DNA from: Blastococcus sp. TBT05-19 | GTDB taxonomy: Bacteria; Actinomycetota; Actinomycetes; Mycobacteriales; Geodermatophilaceae | Reading direction: 5' to 3' | Assembly (NCBI RefSeq): GCF_003319095.1 | Contig: NZ_QOHI01000002.1 | Span: 186,001-250,000, forward strand | DNA length: 64,000 nt | Shown: piece after piece, positions 776 through 11,309 of the stretch | Position numbering within the stretch: position 1 is the stretch's first letter | Layout of the letters: every line of letters starts with the position of its first letter | Notes under the pieces: model-generated | Database searches by the model: none | Seen by the model: only the letters and a program-made list of their open reading frames with translations | What the model was told of the DNA's origin: nothing | Position numbers and translations under genes: made by a program

Positions 776-2194
776 TCATGCGCGCGGCGGCCGGACGGGC
801 AGCAGGGCCCGGGGGTTCCTCGCGCGGACGGCGCCGGTCCAGAGCCCCGCGCCGTAGGCGAGGTCGTCGAGCCGACGTGCCAGAACGTGACGGAACGGTC
901 CGGACCGCTCGCGGTGCGGCCACCAGGCGACCAGGCCGTCGGCCACGGCCACGGCGAGCACCCCGCGCCGGGCGCGGCGGGACAGGAGCGCGGCGGCGAC
1001 GGCGACCGGCCAGTGGTGGCGGGTGGCGGCGCGGGCCAGGGTCTGCCCGGAGGCGGCCAGCCCCCGCGCGGTGAGCGCCGCCGCGAGCGCCGCGGGCAGC
1101 GGCTCGCCCGGCCGCCGGAGCCGGCGAGCCAGCCGCAGCCCCGTCCCCCCGAGCACGCCTCCCGCCGCGACGCGCCCCCACCGCCCGCCGGCCAGGGCGA
1201 GCGCCCAGGTCAGCGCGGTCTCCGGCGCGAGCACCACCGGCGCCACCGCGCCACCGTGCCGGTCGGCCAGCAGGGCCGCGCCCGTGCCGTAGAACGCGCG
1301 GCGGCGCAGCCACTCGCCGAGCGCGGCCGGGTGCTCGTGCGCCACCTCGGCGGCCGGCTCGTAGCGCACCCGCCACCCGGCAGCGGTCAGCCGCCAGACC
1401 AGGTCGACGTCCTCCGCCACCCGCATCGCCGGGTCGAACCCGCCGCCCACGGCCGCCCGCCGCACCAGCAGGGCGGCACTGGGCACGTAGGACACCGTCG
1501 TCAGCGGGCGGACCGCCGCGGGCCGCGCACCCATGTCGAGCGCGCCGGCGACGTCCTCGTAGGCGCTCGGCCACCCGCGGGCCGCGCCGTCGAGCGGGAC
1601 GATCCGCGGGGCGACGACGGCCAGCCGGGGATCGGCGAGGTGCGGCAGCAGCCGGGCCAGCCAGCCGGGGCGCGGCACGCAGTCGGAGTCGAGGAACGCG
1701 ACGACGTCGGTCGTCGCCGCGGCCAGCCCGGCGTTGCGGGCGGCGGCCGGGCCGCGGGACGACGGGTGCCGGACCACGCGCACCCCGGCCGGCACCGCGA
1801 CCGGCGCGCGCGACCCGTCGTCGACCATGACCACCGGCAGCGCCGCCGTGGCCGGGTCCGCCCGGAGCGCGTCGAGCAGCCGGGCGAGCTCCGCGGGGCG
1901 GTCGCGCACCGGGATCACCACGGTCACCGCGGCGTCCCCGCCCGGCACGAGCGAGGGGTGGGCGACCCCGGCGTCGAGCAGGCGCGCGGCCAGGGCGGCC
2001 GTCGTCGCGTCCCGGACCTCGACCCGGTCGGCGCCCAGCAGCTCCGCCGCCCGCGGCGCGAGCCGGAGCAGCCGGAGCGGCGAGCCGCCCAGCAGGGTGG
2101 CCCCGCCGTCGCGCCGACGGGTGCGCGGGTCGAGGCGGACGGCGAACCCGTCGGGCAGCCGGCCCGCGGGCGCGGCCGGGACGGGACCGGTCAC
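776..2194 (-). CDS. mftF: Mycofactocin glycosyltransferase MftF
   Basis: This family-2 glycosyltransferase of 472 aa is the enzyme that adds glucose units to premycofactocin. The N-terminal 'LPDGFAVRLDPRTRR' and 'LLGGSPLRLLRL' (residues about 13-45) are the signature of the MftF family and not of ordinary GT2 enzymes. The catalytic domain shows 'VVIPVRDR' (about 92), 'VDDGS' (124-128), the DxD-type 'FLDSD' (167-171) and 'EDVDLVWRL' (about 256). Hydrophobic stretches in the C-terminal third suggest membrane association. It starts at GTG 2192-2194. It stands 1.1 kb from mftE and 5.5 kb from mftC, so it is not in one operon with the core genes. Identity is by family motifs; the sugar donor is from knowledge of mycobacterial MftF. 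Confidence 0.88.
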   Translation of the reverse strand: MTGPVPAAPAGRLPDGFAVRLDPRTRRRDGGATLLGGSPLRLLRLAPRAAELLGADRVEVRDATTAALAARLLDAGVAHPSLVPGGDAAVTVVIPVRDRPAELARLLDALRADPATAALPVVMVDDGSRAPVAVPAGVRVVRHPSSRGPAAARNAGLAAATTDVVAFLDSDCVPRPGWLARLLPHLADPRLAVVAPRIVPLDGAARGWPSAYEDVAGALDMGARPAAVRPLTTVSYVPSAALLVRRAAVGGGFDPAMRVAEDVDLVWRLTAAGWRVRYEPAAEVAHEHPAALGEWLRRRAFYGTGAALLADRHGGAVAPVVLAPETALTWALALAGGRWGRVAAGGVLGGTGLRLARRLRRPGEPLPAALAAALTARGLAASGQTLARAATRHHWPVAVAAALLSRRARRGVLAVAVADGLVAWWPHRERSGPFRHVLARRLDDLAYGAGLWTGAVRARNPRALLPVRPPRA

Positions 2195-3299: not shown

Positions 3300-3995
3300 T
3301 CACCCCACGAGCCGCCCGGCGGGGTCCACCCGCCACTCCCGCACCGCCGCGACCAGCCGGCCGGCCAGGTCCGCCACCAGCGCCGCGCCCTCCGCGGCCG
3401 ACGCACCCGCCGGGTCCCCGAGCACGCCGTTCGGGCTCACCGCCCGCACGCACTCGGCCCGCATCCGGGGCAGCAGCTCCCGCAGCGGCGCCGTCTCCCC
3501 GGGCTCCGCCCGGTCCCCACGCACCCCAGCTGGTTCCACGTGCAACATCAGCGACGTCTCCAGCCGGCCGGCGTGCGCGTCGCCCCCGCGCACGGTCAGC
3601 GGCCACCACGCCGCGTCCCGGCCCTCCGCGCGCAGCAGCGGCACCGCCGCGCGCAGGGCGTCGACGTTGCCGCCGTGGCCGTTGACGACCAGCAGCCGCC
3701 CGGCCCAGCGGCCGGCGGACCGCCCGTACTCCACCAGGAGCGTGGTGAGCGCCGCGGTGCCGATCGACACCGTGCCCGGGAAGCCCTCGTGCTCCCCGCT
3801 CGCCCCGTAGGCGATCGCCGGGGCCAGCAGCGCGCCGTGGAGGCCGGGCACCGCCTCCGACGCCACCGCCTCCGCCGTGCGGGTGTCGGTGGCCAGCGGG
3901 AGGTGCGGGCCGTGCTGCTCGACCGAGCCCAGGGGCACGACGAGCAGCGGCCGCGACGGCAGCTCGGGCCAGGTCGCGCCGGCGAGGGAGGTCAC
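3300..3995 (-). CDS. mftE: Mycofactocin precursor peptide peptidase MftE (creatininase family)
   Basis: This 231-aa creatininase-fold metallopeptidase is expected to cut the modified C-terminal Val-Tyr pair from MftA after MftC has acted. Metal ligands are visible in 'GSVEQHGPHLPLATDT' (Glu26, His28, Asp37) and later in 'VNGHGGN' (His107) and 'HAGRLETSLML' (His141, Glu146). The short length and the 'VEQHGPHLPL' form match the mycofactocin-type subfamily more closely than creatinine amidohydrolases. It starts at GTG 3993-3995. It lies alone among unrelated genes, 3.7 kb from mftC. Assignment to mycofactocin rests on subfamily motifs plus the other mft genes nearby. Confidence 0.85.
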   Translation of the reverse strand: MTSLAGATWPELPSRPLLVVPLGSVEQHGPHLPLATDTRTAEAVASEAVPGLHGALLAPAIAYGASGEHEGFPGTVSIGTAALTTLLVEYGRSAGRWAGRLLVVNGHGGNVDALRAAVPLLRAEGRDAAWWPLTVRGGDAHAGRLETSLMLHVEPAGVRGDRAEPGETAPLRELLPRMRAECVRAVSPNGVLGDPAGASAAEGAALVADLAGRLVAAVREWRVDPAGRLVG

Positions 3996-5292: not shown

Positions 5293-5772
5293 ATGAGCGC
5301 AGAAGACACGCACAAGGTCGCCGAGCTGCTGAAGGGTGAGCGCTTCGGCTTCCTCACCACGATCGCGCCCGGCGGCAAGCTGACCAGCCGGCCCATGACG
5401 CTGCAGGAGGTCGAGTTCGACGGCGACCTGTGGTTCTACGCCGAGCGGAGCTCCCACCCGGTGGCGCACATCGCCGCCGAGCCGCAGGTGAACGTGGGCG
5501 TGGGCTCGGGCGGCACCTGGGTGTCGCTGACCGGGCACGCGACCGTCGTGGACGACCTCGCGAAGAAGAAGGAGCTGTGGAACAGCGGCGTCGAGGCGTG
5601 GTTCCCCAACGGCCCCGAGGACCCGGAGGTCGTGCTGATCAAGGTCGACGGCGACTCGGCGGAGTACTGGGACAGCCCCGGCGGCCGCCTGGCCACCGCG
5701 TTCAGCTTCGTGAAGGCCAAGGCGACCGGTGAGCGGATCGAGGGCGGCGAGAACGAGAAGGTCGAGCTCTAG
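5293..5772 (+). CDS. Pyridoxamine 5'-phosphate oxidase-fold general stress protein
   Basis: The 159-aa product has the split-barrel flavin-binding fold of the PPOX/general stress protein 26 family: 'RFGFLTTIAPGGKLTSRPM', 'DGDLWFYAERSSHPVAHIAAEPQVNVG', 'WVSLTGHATVV' and 'AEYWDSPGG'. Such proteins bind FMN, F420 or heme; which cofactor applies here cannot be read. ATG 5293 is the clear start. Its stop overlaps by four bases the stop of the GGDEF-EAL gene on the other strand, so the two convergent transcripts share their ends. Confidence 0.85.
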   Translation: MSAEDTHKVAELLKGERFGFLTTIAPGGKLTSRPMTLQEVEFDGDLWFYAERSSHPVAHIAAEPQVNVGVGSGGTWVSLTGHATVVDDLAKKKELWNSGVEAWFPNGPEDPEVVLIKVDGDSAEYWDSPGGRLATAFSFVKAKATGERIEGGENEKVEL

Positions 5773-7571
5773 GCGCTGACCGCGACGCCGAGGGCGGCGC
5801 CGGCCTCGGCGGCCGGCTGCGGGCGGGCGAAGAAGTAGCCCTGCGCCTGCCCGCACTGGAGGTCGCGCAGCGCCAGCCGCTGGTCGTCGGTCTCCACGCC
5901 CTCGGCGACGACGTCCAGCCCCAGCGTGCGGGCCAGCTCGACGATCGAGGCGATCAGCGTGGTGGCCGACCGGCCGGCGGGCAGGTCCATGACGAAGCTG
6001 CGGTCGATCTTGAGCACGTCCGCCGGGAGCTTGCGCAGGTAGGACAGGCTCGAGAAGCCCGTGCCGAAGTCGTCGATGGCGATCCGCACGCCGAGAGCGC
6101 GCAGCGCCTCCAGCTGGGCCACGACGGCGTCGACGTCCCGGACCAGGACGCCCTCGGTGAGCTCGAGGGTGAGCAGCTCGGCCGGGAAACCGGTCTCCGT
6201 GAGCGCCGAGACGACGTCGCCGACGATGTCGGTGTCGAAGAGCTGGCGGGGCGAGAGGTTGACCGCCATCCGCAGCGAGGTGCCGCGCTCGGCGATCCAC
6301 GCGGCGCCCTGCTGGAGGGCGGTGCGGAGCACCCAGCGGCCGATGTCCACGATCGCGCCGCTCTCCTCGGCGAGCGGGATGAACTCGATCGGCGGGACCA
6401 GCCCGCGCTCGGGGTGCCGCCAGCGGACGAGCGCCTCGAAGCCGGTGGTCCGGCCGTCGGTGAGCCGCACCGTCGGCTGGTAGTGCAGTTCGAGCTGGTC
6501 GTCGGTGACCGCGGCCAGCAGGTCCTGCTGCAGGCCGGCGCGACGGCGGGCGGCCTCGGCCATCCCGTCGGCATAGCCCACGAGCCGGTTCTTGCCCTGC
6601 GCCTTGGCCAGGTGCATCGCCAGGTCGGCGTTGCGCAGCAGCGCCCCGGTGGTGCGGTCGTCGTCGGTGGCCTCGGCGACGCCCACGCTGGCGTGCACGG
6701 TCACCATCCCGTCCTCCACGGGCACCGGGAGGGACAGCGAGACCAGCACCCGCTCGCCGACGGCGTGCGCGACCTCGGCGTTCCCGGCGACGACCACGGC
6801 GAACTCGTCCCCGCCGATGCGGGCCACGACGTCGTCGGGGCGCACGCAGGCGCGCAGCCGCTCGGCGACGACGCGGAGCAGGACGTCACCGACGGCATGA
6901 CCGCGGCTGTCGTTGACGTCCTTGAAGTCGTCGACGTCGACGAACAGCACGCTGACGGGGCCACCACGACCGAGCGCGCGGGCGGTGACCTCCTCGAGCT
7001 GCGTGCGGTTGGCCAGGCCGGTCAGTGAGTCGCTGAGCTCCTGCTCCTCGTTGAGCCGCCACGAGGTGAGGTGCGCCAGGCTCGCGGCCAGGACGAACGC
7101 CGCGTGGATCCCGGCCCACAGCCACGGCTGGTGCTCGGCGGCGTCGTGCCCGAAGACCTCGTGCGGGAACAGCGTGCCGACCGCCCCGTGGTGGACGGAG
7201 ACGACGACCAGCGCGATCCCGAAGGGGATCCAGCTCTGGTACAGCGAGACGACGCCGATCATGACGAAGAAGGCGAAGTGCGCCTCGGTGACGCCACCCC
7301 ACAGGTGGGTCAGCGCCACGGAGGCGCCCATGAGCGCGAAGGTGCTGGCGGCGGCGCGGACGGCGCGCCCGAGCGTGGGAACGGCGGCGACGGCGGCGGG
7401 TCCGGCGACACCGGCGAGCACCGCGACGGCGGTCGGCTGGTCGTAGCCCCAGAACCAGGCGAGCAGCACCAGCCCGACGGCGGCGGCGAAGGACAACCGC
7501 ACGATGGCGCGGTGCCGTCCCTGCCAGACGTCCTCGGGCAGCTCGCGTCCGCGAGGGAGCACCCCACTCAT
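5769..7571 (-). CDS. Membrane GGDEF-EAL cyclic-di-GMP synthase/phosphodiesterase
   Basis: This protein of 600 aa starts at ATG 7569-7571; an upstream GTG would add four residues. The N-terminal 175 residues hold several membrane helices with conserved-looking 'GGVTEAHFAFFVM' and 'VSVHHG', a sensor layout shared by many uncharacterised GGDEF and chemotaxis proteins. The GGDEF domain keeps GGDEF (about 253-257) and an inhibitory site RPDD five residues before it. The EAL domain keeps 'FEALVRWRHPERGLVP' (EAL about 379-381), 'NLSPRQ', 'ELTEG', 'DDFGTG' and 'KIDRSFV', so both activities look intact. It sits between the mft core and the other mft genes with no clear functional tie. Confidence 0.92.
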   Translation of the reverse strand: MSGVLPRGRELPEDVWQGRHRAIVRLSFAAAVGLVLLAWFWGYDQPTAVAVLAGVAGPAAVAAVPTLGRAVRAAASTFALMGASVALTHLWGGVTEAHFAFFVMIGVVSLYQSWIPFGIALVVVSVHHGAVGTLFPHEVFGHDAAEHQPWLWAGIHAAFVLAASLAHLTSWRLNEEQELSDSLTGLANRTQLEEVTARALGRGGPVSVLFVDVDDFKDVNDSRGHAVGDVLLRVVAERLRACVRPDDVVARIGGDEFAVVVAGNAEVAHAVGERVLVSLSLPVPVEDGMVTVHASVGVAEATDDDRTTGALLRNADLAMHLAKAQGKNRLVGYADGMAEAARRRAGLQQDLLAAVTDDQLELHYQPTVRLTDGRTTGFEALVRWRHPERGLVPPIEFIPLAEESGAIVDIGRWVLRTALQQGAAWIAERGTSLRMAVNLSPRQLFDTDIVGDVVSALTETGFPAELLTLELTEGVLVRDVDAVVAQLEALRALGVRIAIDDFGTGFSSLSYLRKLPADVLKIDRSFVMDLPAGRSATTLIASIVELARTLGLDVVAEGVETDDQRLALRDLQCGQAQGYFFARPQPAAEAGAALGVAVSA

Positions 7572-7596
7572 CCGTTCGATCACACCCGGGCCATCG

Positions 7597-7653: not shown

Positions 7654-8877
7654 TCAGCGCAGCGGGAGCCCGGCCAGCGGCGACTCGTCGCAGGCCTTCA
7701 CCGGGATGGCCGGCATGCCGAGCAGGGTCGGCTGGCCGCGGACCGGACCCGTGTGGGAGTGGTCGACGTGGCTCTTCGGCGTGCCCAGCCCGAGGTCGCG
7801 GGCGGCCAGCGCCGTCTCGCCGTAGCCCTGCACGCACTCCGGGTCGGGGCCGTCCAGCGGCAGGCCGGTGAAGAACTTGGCCGCCATGCACCCGCCCCGG
7901 CAGGCGTCGAAGTGCGCGCACTTCGTGCAGGCGCCGCCGGTCTGCGGGCTGCGCAGGTCGGCGAACAGCTCGCTGGACTGCCACACCCGCTGGAAACCGC
8001 CCCCGTCGCGCACGTTGCCGGCGAGGAAGTTCTCGTGGATGGCGAACGGGCAGGCGTAGACGTCGCCGACCGGGTCGATCAGGCAGACGACCCGGCCCGC
8101 GCCGCACAGGTTGAGCCCGGGGAGCGACTCGCCCAGCGCCGACAGGTGGAAGAACGAGTCACCGGTGAGCACGTCGTCGCCGTTGGCCAGCAGCCACGCG
8201 TAGAGCTCGCGCTGCTGGGCCTGGGTCGGGTGCAGCTGGTCCCACACGTCGGCGCCGCGGCCCGAGGGGCGGAAGCGGGTGATGCGCAGCTGGGCGCCGT
8301 ACCGGTCGGTGAGGGCCTTGAAGTCGTCGAGCTGCGAGACGTTCTCCCGCGTGACGACGACGGAGACCTTGAAGTCCTCCATCCCCGCCTCGGCGAGGTT
8401 CTCCAGCGCGCGGGTGGCGGTGGCGAAGGAACCCGTGCCGCGCACGCGGTCGTTCACCTCGGCGGTGGCGCCGTCCAGGGAGATCTGCACGTCGACGTAG
8501 TCGGTGCGGGCCAGCTGCTGGGCGCGGGTGCGGTCCAGCTTGATGCCGTTGGTGGAGAACTTGACGCCGACGTCGTGGCCGATCGCGTAGTCGAGCAGGT
8601 GCCAGAAGTCCGGCCGCACCGTGGGCTCGCCGCCGCCGACGTTGACGTAGAAGACCTGCATCCGCTGCAGCTCGTCGATGACGCCCTCGGCCTCAGCGGT
8701 GGTGAGCTCGCGGGGGTCGCGCCGTCCCGAGGAGGACAGGCAGTGCACGCACGCCAGGTTGCAGGCGTAGGTGAGCTCCCAGGTGAGGCAGATCGGGGCG
8801 TCCAGGCCGTACTCGAACTGGTCGATCAGCCGGCCGCCCTCGGGCCGCTGCGGTCGGGCGGGCAGGACGGCGGTCAC
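7654..8877 (-). CDS. mftC: Mycofactocin radical SAM maturase MftC
   Basis: The 407-aa protein is the radical SAM/SPASM enzyme that oxidatively decarboxylates the C-terminal Tyr of MftA and then forms the Val-Tyr ring. The 4Fe-4S motif CxxxCxxC is at Cys39-Cys43-Cys46 ('CNLACVHC'), 'GGGEPTVRP' follows around 100, and the C-terminal SPASM region has the cysteines of 'LCGAGRVVCLID', 'VYACPFA' and 'CTKCAHFDACRGGC'. Its GTG start overlaps the mftB stop by four bases (GTGA), indicating translational coupling. It is the last gene of the mftA-mftB-mftC operon. Confidence 0.96.
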   Translation of the reverse strand: MTAVLPARPQRPEGGRLIDQFEYGLDAPICLTWELTYACNLACVHCLSSSGRRDPRELTTAEAEGVIDELQRMQVFYVNVGGGEPTVRPDFWHLLDYAIGHDVGVKFSTNGIKLDRTRAQQLARTDYVDVQISLDGATAEVNDRVRGTGSFATATRALENLAEAGMEDFKVSVVVTRENVSQLDDFKALTDRYGAQLRITRFRPSGRGADVWDQLHPTQAQQRELYAWLLANGDDVLTGDSFFHLSALGESLPGLNLCGAGRVVCLIDPVGDVYACPFAIHENFLAGNVRDGGGFQRVWQSSELFADLRSPQTGGACTKCAHFDACRGGCMAAKFFTGLPLDGPDPECVQGYGETALAARDLGLGTPKSHVDHSHTGPVRGQPTLLGMPAIPVKACDESPLAGLPLR

Positions 8878-9164
8878 GCGGACTCCCGGGGAGTGATCAT
8901 CTGGGAACGGGCCAGGTCGGCCAGCGCCTTGACGTAGGCGCCGTGCTGGGCCTCGGGCACGCCGCAGGCGACCAGCGCGGCCTCGGCCGAGGGGTGGTCG
9001 GCCAGCGAGGTGACGACGGCGACCAGGAGCTTCGACTTCAGGAAGGAGAGCTTCCGGTTGGCGAAGGAGTAGACCAGCGCGCCGAACGGCTCGGGCCGCA
9101 GGGCGACCGACGAGGCCTTCTGCCAGGGCAGCGCCGGGTCGAACACCGGGGCGGGCGCGGTCAC
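8874..9164 (-). CDS. mftB: Mycofactocin peptide chaperone MftB
   Basis: This 96-aa protein is the RiPP recognition element that presents the MftA leader to MftC. It contains 'FDPALPWQKASSVALRPEPFGALVYSFANRKLSFLKS', which is characteristic of MftB. The start is taken as GTG 9162-9164 because it is the only start codon in frame that respects the mftA stop, 13 bases upstream. Its last codon overlaps mftC. The length matches the family. Confidence 0.93.
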   Translation of the reverse strand: MTAPAPVFDPALPWQKASSVALRPEPFGALVYSFANRKLSFLKSKLLVAVVTSLADHPSAEAALVACGVPEAQHGAYVKALADLARSQMITPRESA

Positions 9165-9177
9165 GGCAGCGGTCGGC

Positions 9178-9300
9178 TCAGTAGACGCCGCACATGCCGT
9201 CGATCGAGACCTCCTCGACCAACGACTCCTCCACCAGGGCCTCCTCGGTGGCGGGCGCCTCGGCGGCGGCGGGGTCCACGACGACGGTCTGCTCGGGCAT
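9178..9300 (-). CDS. mftA: Mycofactocin precursor peptide MftA
   Basis: This 40-codon gene starts at ATG 9298-9300 behind an AGGAG site and encodes the precursor that is turned into the redox cofactor. The acidic leader (for example 'TEEALVEESLVEEV') ends in the invariant core IDGMCGVY, whose last Val and Tyr become mycofactocin. The stop codon lies 13 bases before mftB. It is shorter than usual gene-calling cutoffs and would be easily missed. Identification is by the core motif and by its position before mftB and mftC. Confidence 0.95.
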   Translation of the reverse strand: MPEQTVVVDPAAAEAPATEEALVEESLVEEVSIDGMCGVY

Positions 9301-9343
9301 CTGCACTCCTGGGTGAGCGAGGGGGCGTCCGGCCGAACGCTAG

Positions 9344-9358
9344 TGGCACCCAGTGCCA
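9344..9358. promoter_or_regulatory. Probable MftR operator, mftA/mftR divergent promoter
   Basis: TGGCACCCAGTGCCA is a perfect palindrome with a three-base centre (TGGCAC-N3-GTGCCA). It is 44 bases upstream of the mftA start and 68 upstream of the divergent mftR start, where a TetR repressor could control both. The same arms recur before mftD. MftR binding is inference from repetition and position. Confidence 0.8.
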
Positions 9359-9425
9359 GGAGCAAGCAGCCGCTGCCGTACCCGGGAAGCATCCCGCAGC
9401 GGCGGCGGACCGGCAGGATGGCCCC

Positions 9426-10013
9426 GTGACCTCGACCGCCGCTCCCGCCGGGGCCGCCCGCGCCCGGGTCGAGCGGGCTGCACTGGCGCTGTTCGCCAGC
9501 CGCGGCTTCGACGCCGTGACCGCCGACGAGGTCGCCGACGCGGCGGGGATCAGCCGGCGGACCTTCTTCCGCTACTACCCGACCAAGGCCGACGCCGTCT
9601 GGGGCGATTTCGCCGCGCACGTCGACCGCCTCGACGGTCTGCTGCGGGCCGCCGGACCCGACCGGCCGGTGCTCGCCACGATCTGCGCGGCCTACGCCGA
9701 GGTGAACGACTACGGGGACGACGACCTGCCGGTGCTGCGCCAGCGCATGCGGCTGATCCTCACCGAGCCCGCGCTGCAGGCGCACTCCCAGCTGCGGTAC
9801 GCGGAGATCGACCGCGTGGTGGCCGAGCACGTCGCGCGCAGCACCGGCGAGGACCCGGCCGGGCTGCTGCCTCGCCTGGTGGCGGCGAGCACCCGCGCCG
9901 CGGCGACCACCGCGTTCGCCGCCTGGCTGGCCGACGACCGCACCGACCTCGCCCGGCAGCTGCACCGCGCCTTCGACGAGCTGGCCGCCGGCTTCCCGAC
10001 GCTGCGGGGCTGA
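9426..10013 (+). CDS. mftR: TetR-family regulator MftR
   Basis: The 195-aa product has a TetR N-terminal helix-turn-helix: 'ALFASRGFDAVTADEVADAAGISRRTFFRYYPTKADAVWGDF' lies at about residues 20-62. Mycofactocin regulators have this 'ISRRTFFRYY' recognition helix. The C-terminal ligand domain is all helical and would bind an effector; long-chain acyl-CoA is reported for mycobacterial MftR. It begins at GTG 9426 and is divergent from mftABC, with an operator-like palindrome between them. It is followed after 87 bases by mftD, whose promoter holds a second palindrome. Confidence 0.9.
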   Translation: MTSTAAPAGAARARVERAALALFASRGFDAVTADEVADAAGISRRTFFRYYPTKADAVWGDFAAHVDRLDGLLRAAGPDRPVLATICAAYAEVNDYGDDDLPVLRQRMRLILTEPALQAHSQLRYAEIDRVVAEHVARSTGEDPAGLLPRLVAASTRAAATTAFAAWLADDRTDLARQLHRAFDELAAGFPTLRG

Positions 10014-10054
10014 CCCCTCCCGGCTGTGGCGTGCGTCTCCCCGCGGCCGCTACT

Positions 10055-10071
10055 GTGGCACTCAGTGCCAC
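10055..10071. promoter_or_regulatory. Probable MftR operator before mftD
   Basis: GTGGCACTCAGTGCCAC is a 17-bp palindrome whose inner arms TGGCAC and GTGCCA are identical to those of the site at 9344-9358, with the same three-base spacing. It ends 29 bases before the mftD ATG. This implies that mftD has its own promoter under the same repressor as mftA. Confidence 0.8.
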
Positions 10072-10100: not shown

Positions 10101-11309
10101 ATGGCGGACGCGTGGTTCGAGACGGTGGCCGAGGCGCAGCGCCGGGCGAAGAGGCGCCTCCCGAAGGGCGTCTACGGCGCCCTGCTCGCCGGCTCCGAGC
10201 GCGGCCTGACCGTGGAGGACAACACCACCGCCTTCGGCGAGCTCGGGTTCGCGCCGCACAGTGCGGGCCTGGCCAACGAGCGGAACATGGCCGTCACCGT
10301 CATGGGCCAGGAGATCTCGCTGCCCGTGCTGATCAGCCCGACGGGCGTGCAGGCCGTGCACCCCGACGGCGAGGTCGCCGTCGCCCGGGCCGCCGCCAGC
10401 CGCGGGACGGCGATGGGCCTGTCCTCCATGGCCAGCAAGCCGATGGAGGAGGTCATCGCAGCCAATCCGAAGACCTTCTTCCAGCTGTACTGGGTCGGGG
10501 ACCGCGACCAGATGGCGGCGAAGGTGGAGCGGGCCCGCAACGCCGGCGCCGCGGGCCTGATCGCCACCCTGGACTGGTCGTTCTCCCACGGCCGCGACTG
10601 GGGCAGCCCGTTCATCCCGGAGAAGATCGACTTCGAGGCGGTGCGCCGCTACGCCCCGCAGGTCGCGCTCAAGCCGCGCTGGCTGTGGGAGTTCGCGAAG
10701 ACCCGCTCGCTGCCCGACCTCACGGTCCCGAACATGGTCGCCACCCCCGGCGCGCCCGCGCCCACCTTCTTCGGCGCCTACGGCCAGTGGATGAACTCCC
10801 CCATGCCGACCTGGGAGGACGTCGCCTGGCTGCGCAGCCTGTGGCCGGAGGCGCCGTTCATGCTCAAGGGCGTCATGCGGGTCGACGACGCCCGGCGCGC
10901 CGTCGACGCCGGTGTCACCGCGATCTCGGTGTCCAACCACGGCGGCAACAACCTCGACGGCACCCCGGCCTCGATCCGGGCGCTGCCCGCGGTCGCCGAG
11001 GCCGTCGGCGACCAGGTGGAGGTGCTGCTGGACGGCGGCATCCGCCGGGGTGGCGACGTCGCCAAGGCCCTCGCCCTGGGCGCCAGGGCCGTGATGATCG
11101 GCCGCGCCTACCTGTGGGGCCTCGCGGCCAACGGCCAGGCCGGCGTGGAGAACGTCCTGGACCTGATGCGCGACGGCCTGGGCTCGGCGATGGTCGGCCT
11201 CGGCCGCCCCTCGGTGGGCGAGCTCAGCCGCGACGACCTGGTCATCCCGCCCGGCTTCGAGCAGCGTCTCGGCGACACCACCGTCGCGCGCGCGAGCGAG
11301 GAGTCCTAG
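10101..11309 (+). CDS. mftD: Mycofactocin FMN oxidase MftD
   Basis: The 402-aa protein belongs to the FMN-dependent alpha-hydroxy-acid (L-lactate) dehydrogenase fold. MftD oxidatively deaminates the ring released by MftE to give premycofactocin. The FMN/active-site motifs 'SVSNHGGNNLDGTPASI' (His at about 284), 'VEVLLDGGIRRGGDVAKALALGARAVMIGRAY' and the early 'LPVLISPTGVQAVHPDGEVAVARAAASRGT' are present. ATG 10101 is the start. The order mftR-mftD beside mftABC and the palindrome upstream support the mycofactocin assignment over a lactate enzyme. Confidence 0.93.
   Translation: MADAWFETVAEAQRRAKRRLPKGVYGALLAGSERGLTVEDNTTAFGELGFAPHSAGLANERNMAVTVMGQEISLPVLISPTGVQAVHPDGEVAVARAAASRGTAMGLSSMASKPMEEVIAANPKTFFQLYWVGDRDQMAAKVERARNAGAAGLIATLDWSFSHGRDWGSPFIPEKIDFEAVRRYAPQVALKPRWLWEFAKTRSLPDLTVPNMVATPGAPAPTFFGAYGQWMNSPMPTWEDVAWLRSLWPEAPFMLKGVMRVDDARRAVDAGVTAISVSNHGGNNLDGTPASIRALPAVAEAVGDQVEVLLDGGIRRGGDVAKALALGARAVMIGRAYLWGLAANGQAGVENVLDLMRDGLGSAMVGLGRPSVGELSRDDLVIPPGFEQRLGDTTVARASEES

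Follow-up and report, generated by a model that had tools for sequence, protein, structure and literature searches.

The window analyzed here, a stretch of 64,000 nucleotides from Blastococcus sp. TBT05-19 (contig NZ_QOHI01000002.1, positions 186,001 to 250,000), encodes genes for biosynthesis of the cofactor mycofactocin. The genes for the precursor peptide (mftA), mftB and the radical SAM maturase (mftC) lie together on the reverse strand. The gene for the TetR-family regulator MftR is divergent from mftA, and the gene for the pre-mycofactocin synthase (mftD) lies behind mftR on the forward strand. The features are as follows.

797-2140, reverse strand: mftF
3309-3986, reverse strand: mftE
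5769-7583, reverse strand: GGDEF-EAL (cyclic di-GMP) gene
7654-8877, reverse strand: mftC, radical SAM maturase (TIGR03962)
8874-9164, reverse strand: mftB (TIGR03967)
9178-9300, reverse strand: mftA, mycofactocin precursor (TIGR03969, 46.7 bits, cut-off 25)
9337-9342, reverse strand: predicted -10 box of mftA, TAGCGT
9344-9358, no strand assigned: predicted operator 1, TGGCACCCAGTGCCA, in the mftA/mftR gap
9360-9365, reverse strand: predicted -35 box of mftA, TTGCTC
9426-10013, forward strand: mftR, TetR-family regulator (TIGR03968, 227.9 bits, cut-off 224.9)
10051-10056, forward strand: predicted -10 box of mftD, TACTGT
10056-10070, no strand assigned: predicted operator 2, TGGCACTCAGTGCCA, with the mftD start codon 30 bases on
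10101-11309, forward strand: mftD, pre-mycofactocin synthase (TIGR03966, 682.9 bits, cut-off 470.85)

MftR exceeds the curated TIGR03968 cut-off by a narrow margin, and the recognition-helix stretch RRT(F/L)FR is present in all 27 aligned MftR sequences, including that of the window. The best eight named matches to mftD are all from Blastococcus (84-95% identical). The GGDEF-EAL gene is on the same strand as mftC and 70 bases behind it. Of 80 Geodermatophilaceae loci, 22 contain a homologue, and in 19 of them it lies immediately behind mftC. This cyclic di-GMP enzyme may be part of an MftR-controlled transcript together with mftC.

Two exact copies of the palindrome TGGCAC-N3-GTGCCA occur in the window, separated by 712 bases. 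The initial annotation reported two perfect palindromes with the same arms and spacing and mftR between them, and the sequence confirms this. The first site is where it had been placed; the second, given as 10055-10071, is one base shorter at each end (10056-10070). The palindrome had not been noticed elsewhere, and a scan of the genome (3,924,978 bases in 25 contigs) recovered only these two exact matches, so that the sole exact copies in the genome flank mftR. Six further places, on other contigs of the same genome, match with one mismatch. Statistics from shuffling the window alone are uninformative when mismatches are allowed: TGGCAC-N3-GTGCCA with two mismatches was found 4 times (4.30 expected) and TGGCA-N5-TGCCA with one mismatch twice (1.34 expected), and neither result is significant. 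The evidence that goes beyond chance is the exact, co-located pair, together with its conservation among relatives.

The positions of the sites relative to predicted promoter elements are also conserved. Operator 1 fills the spacer between the putative -35 and -10 boxes of mftA, which are 17 bases apart. Among 79 sites drawn from 81 loci, TTGNNN and TANNNT are present at these positions in every case, with a spacer (searched over 15-20 bases) of 17 bases in 49 and 18 bases in 30. At mftD, the last base of the candidate -10 box is the first base of operator 2. A TANNNT ending on the first T of the operator is found at all 33 loci of the Blastococcus groups (g1 and g6) and at 53 of 74 loci overall; at mftD only this -10-like box was identified, and no -35 box was established. 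Bound MftR would thus cover core promoter elements at mftA and mftD alike. Given the conserved -10-like box and the existence of relatives in which mftD is unlinked, we infer that mftD forms a separate transcript.

As the initial annotation anticipated, the palindrome is found upstream of mftA and of mftD in close relatives. We compared 220 loci, comprising 80 from Geodermatophilaceae and 60 from others of the order, identified via MftR, and 80 named loci identified via MftD; some genomes are in both the MftR-found and MftD-found sets. There are three main gene orders: mftC, mftB, mftA divergent from mftR, mftD (as in the window); mftD, mftC, mftB, mftA divergent from mftR (as in mycobacteria); and mftC, mftB, mftA divergent from mftR with mftD elsewhere. 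A site with at most one mismatch to TGRCAYYSRRTGYCA is present in the mftA/mftR gap of 79 of 81 Geodermatophilaceae loci and of 21 of 60 other loci. The two Geodermatophilaceae loci that have lost it (L029 and L058) lack the left arm of the palindrome; L029 retains an exact site at mftD.

The presence of a site at mftD varies with gene order. Where mftD lies behind mftC, a site with two or fewer mismatches was found in none of 61 cases. For detached mftD genes, 50 of 78 have a site with at most one mismatch upstream (loci fetched by protein alone, with duplicates removed). All 43 genes from Geodermatophilaceae contribute to this number, together with 7 of the 35 from outside the family (two Amycolatopsis, Pseudonocardia, Saccharopolyspora, Herbiconiux, Compostimonas and Acidiferrimicrobium); the other 28 of the 35 are without one at this threshold. 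The 78 genes exclude 25 mftD genes of loci L238-L297, which were fetched for carrying a site. With these included the count is 75 of 103, compared with 0.15 such sites per 103 mftD genes in shuffled upstream regions. Considering all mftA loci, a site with two or fewer mismatches is found upstream of mftA in 144 of 155 with MftR, in the single locus with a weak TetR and in 5 of 14 without MftR, a softer contrast than that within Geodermatophilaceae. The Blastococcus loci L027, L038 and L039 have an SDR gene divergent from mftD, and the mftD operator appears to be common to both genes.

The palindrome is not scattered at random through genomes. Using the pattern TGRCACYCRGTGYCA (TGRCAC-YSR-GTGYCA), with each site listed once and the pattern read backwards as a control, we identified 113 sites in 57 Geodermatophilaceae genomes, versus 8 for the control. 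The degenerate pattern was derived from Geodermatophilaceae mftA and mftD sites, so the counts at these genes cannot be taken as independent of the pattern; dehydrogenase sites played no part in its derivation. By hand addition, 37 sites fall in mftA/mftR gaps, 44 at mftD, 12 at alcohol dehydrogenases, 4 at SDRs, 2 at SDRs beside a second MftR gene and 14 elsewhere. Of the 113, 61 were classed from their fetched DNA; the remaining 52 are close to an MftR gene and were assigned from coordinates, some of them with a check against fetched loci.

Every one of the 42 genomes with MftR contains at least one site, and 14 of the 15 without it have none (Fisher test, about 2e-12), where MftR presence is a hit at E <=1e-50 and 7 of the 15 MftR-less assemblies are below 90% complete. 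A site precedes mftD in all 42 MftR genomes, linked to mftR in 14 and unlinked in 28. Eight of the 15 MftR-less genomes retain mftD, positioned tail-to-tail with mftC in six cases, without mftC in the fetched piece in one and behind mftC in one. None of these eight genes has a site with fewer than three mismatches in the 250 bases upstream. The site at detached mftD is thus present in 42 of 42 MftR genomes and absent in 7 of 7 MftR-less genomes (Fisher test, about 1e-8). Because detached mftD genes in MftR-less genomes are without it, the site accompanies MftR and not merely a free-standing mftD.

The 14 sites that adjoin none of the tested families include one in the MftR-less genome G341, and many of them could be chance occurrences, given the 8 matches to the reversed control. 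Four site and gene pairs recur by related genes in two genomes each (L263 and L274, L267 and L273, L269 and L279, L282 and L285), and these may be real. The recurring neighbors are a molybdopterin-type dehydrogenase, a PaaX-like regulator, a Clp-type AAA protein and an acyl-CoA dehydrogenase-like protein. For the Clp-type gene (L269 and L279), the site falls at the 3' end.

The sites are also found upstream of enzymes that use the cofactor. We fetched 60 stretches (at most 4 kb on each side) covering the 61 sites that were not classed as linked with the main mftR. The profiles place 30 of these sites before mftD, 12 before NDMA-dependent alcohol dehydrogenases, 5 before SDRs and the other 14 before none of these. 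Each of the 12 alcohol dehydrogenases scores above the TIGR03989 cut-off and each of the 5 SDRs above that of TIGR03971; a sixth mycofactocin-coupled SDR site, beside a second MftR gene in genome G120, was placed by coordinates only. TIGR03989 genes are rare, numbering 56 across 20 genomes, and TIGR03971 has 56 matches in 8 genomes. With gene counts from these 20 and 8 genomes, and with sites assumed to be confined to a tenth of the genome, a loose chance model predicts about 0.02 alcohol dehydrogenase sites and 0.05 SDR sites among the 31 sites not at mftD. Both families have been tied to mycofactocin by phylogenetic profiling, and the members identified here pass the same cut-offs as the published families (PMC3023750). 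The link described there is one of co-occurrence; in the genomes studied here, some members also have a predicted operator in common with the biosynthesis genes. Of the two TIGR03989 genes in the genome of the window, neither has a site, and TIGR03971 has no match there at E 1e-80. The exact-consensus regulon of this organism thus consists of two promoters.

In other families, we searched for TGGCA-YYCRR-TGCCA. In 60 Pseudonocardiaceae genomes there are 31 sites, versus 13 for the reversed control. The 30 site loci fetched include five mftA/mftR gaps and no mftD, alcohol dehydrogenase or SDR. In 61 Mycobacteriaceae genomes there are 21 sites versus 18 for the control, and the 21 loci include one mftA/mftR gap and, by profile, no mftD, alcohol dehydrogenase or SDR. 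Sites of this consensus thus argue against an extended regulon in Mycobacteriaceae. One Mycobacteriaceae genome (G392; L312 and L317) has two operator-like palindromes 38 bases apart, and no gene of the profiled families was found in the surrounding 3 kb.

Genes for MftR-like TetR proteins that are not MftR lie near the palindrome in 6 of the 21 Mycobacteriaceae loci (L301, L303, L305, L308, L309 and L311; 72-89 bits on our own profile) and in 5 of the 30 Pseudonocardiaceae loci (L329, L334, L340, L344 and L353; 98-107 bits). Seven that were tested on TIGR03968 score 77-103 bits, below the cut-off of 224.9. Because such genes adjoin the same palindrome, it is not exclusive to MftR, and there may be a family of paralogues that share one operator.

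The system most similar to that of the window is in Mycobacterium smegmatis. In that species a single 27-base region (TCCATTCTGGCACTCGATGCCATATAT) is protected by MftR, long-chain acyl-CoA releases the regulator, and raised mftR lowers mft transcripts, that of mftD nearly 80-fold (PMC8728441). A TIGR03968 TetR regulator is divergent from mftA in that organism too, the operator (Omft) is upstream of mftA, and its inner core, GGCA-N5-TGCC, is present at both window sites. Unlike the published logo, T-N2-GGCA-N5-TGCC-N2-A, the sites keep the outer T/A at neither of two positions (site 1) or at one of two (site 2). Single replacements in the mycobacterial operator are reported not to have stopped MftR binding (PMC8728441), and we therefore treat the window sites, despite the incomplete outer T/A, as a variant operator that would work like Omft. 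Omft is placed in the core promoter upstream of mftA; site 1 fits this placement and site 2 is upstream of mftD instead. For M. smegmatis one protected region is reported and mftD is inside the operon (PMC8728441), whereas the mftD of the window stands apart from mftABC with a site to itself.

The initial annotation took the palindrome to be the MftR operator of this lineage. The operator assignment is supported, but the inner core had already been published for mycobacteria (PMC8728441), so the motif is not special to the lineage; its distribution is the new part. Among the open-licence papers listed in our searches, we identified none reporting that MftR has a site upstream of mftD or of dehydrogenase genes. 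The window resembles Saccharopolyspora in having an actinobacterial mft cluster without an internal mftD. The mycofactocin-like clusters of Saccharopolyspora are said to lack mftD (PMC11162802). In the one Saccharopolyspora genome examined here (L223), mftD is encoded as a detached gene, and the operator-like site TGGCACCGGATGTCA precedes it by 51 bases.

Very probably, to judge from sequence comparison, both palindromes of the window are MftR operators, operator 1 at the mftA promoter and operator 2 at a separate mftD promoter. The two strong sites flanking mftR on the same DNA would also be consistent with an auxiliary role for operator 2, in which MftR occupying both sites would loop out the 712-base stretch between them and strengthen repression of mftA and mftR, with mftD not a separate MftR unit. 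This is quite unlikely, as other Geodermatophilaceae genera have mftD and its site unlinked to mftR, often on another contig, and the spacing varies where they are linked (e.g., 664 bases in L093 and 1632 in L038). The MftR-like genes of 77-103 bits near the palindrome in other families raise the alternative that a different TetR sharing the palindrome binds one or both window sites, and that MftR is not the regulator. We give this very little credence, as sites track MftR (42 of 42 versus 1 of 15 genomes) and are absent from detached mftD in genomes without MftR, and the operator core was footprinted for MftR itself in M. smegmatis (PMC8728441).

Ownership of the dehydrogenase sites is less clear-cut than the assignment of both window palindromes to MftR. 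These sites could belong to local regulators, with MftR limited to the mft biosynthesis genes. An MftR-like TetR (49-63 bits) is close to 7 of the 12 alcohol dehydrogenase sites, one of the five profiled SDR sites is flanked by the SDR gene on one side and a second MftR gene (187 bits) on the other (the G120 site is placed similarly, by coordinates only), and the two TIGR03989 genes of the window's genome both are without a site. On the other side, the DNA fetched around five alcohol dehydrogenase sites and four SDR sites (up to 4 kb on each side) contains no MftR-like TetR; these sites lie 22-49 bases from the gene, and so many of them still exceed chance (about 2e-11 and 3e-7, respectively, in the loose model). 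Local ownership is thus possible, though we consider it rather doubtful. The earlier proposal that MftR controls the mft locus is supported, with the addition that several relatives have this site in front of mycofactocin-dependent dehydrogenases as well. The best reading of these patterns is that MftR controls cofactor synthesis, the detached mftD and, in some relatives, cofactor-using enzymes. We lean, with some reserve, towards a Geodermatophilaceae MftR cofactor regulon in which the operator is found with out-of-operon mftD and cofactor-using dehydrogenases, and one acyl-CoA-sensing repressor would set both supply and use.

In the mechanism that we propose, MftR at operator 1, in the spacer between the -35 and -10 boxes, would block mftA, mftB and mftC, and perhaps mftR. 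At operator 2, overlapping the -10 box, it would block mftD. With mftD outside the mftABC operon and provided with its own MftR site, the split pathway of Geodermatophilaceae would be placed under one switch. The inducer is probably long-chain acyl-CoA, by analogy with M. smegmatis.

The mftD gene provides a natural experiment, as the site is present if the gene has its own promoter and MftR is encoded, and is missing if either condition fails. The operator can help to locate a detached mftD where the mft cluster looks incomplete. It could also mark dehydrogenases that are switched together with the cofactor, and thus the enzymes and substrates to test first for the role of mycofactocin.
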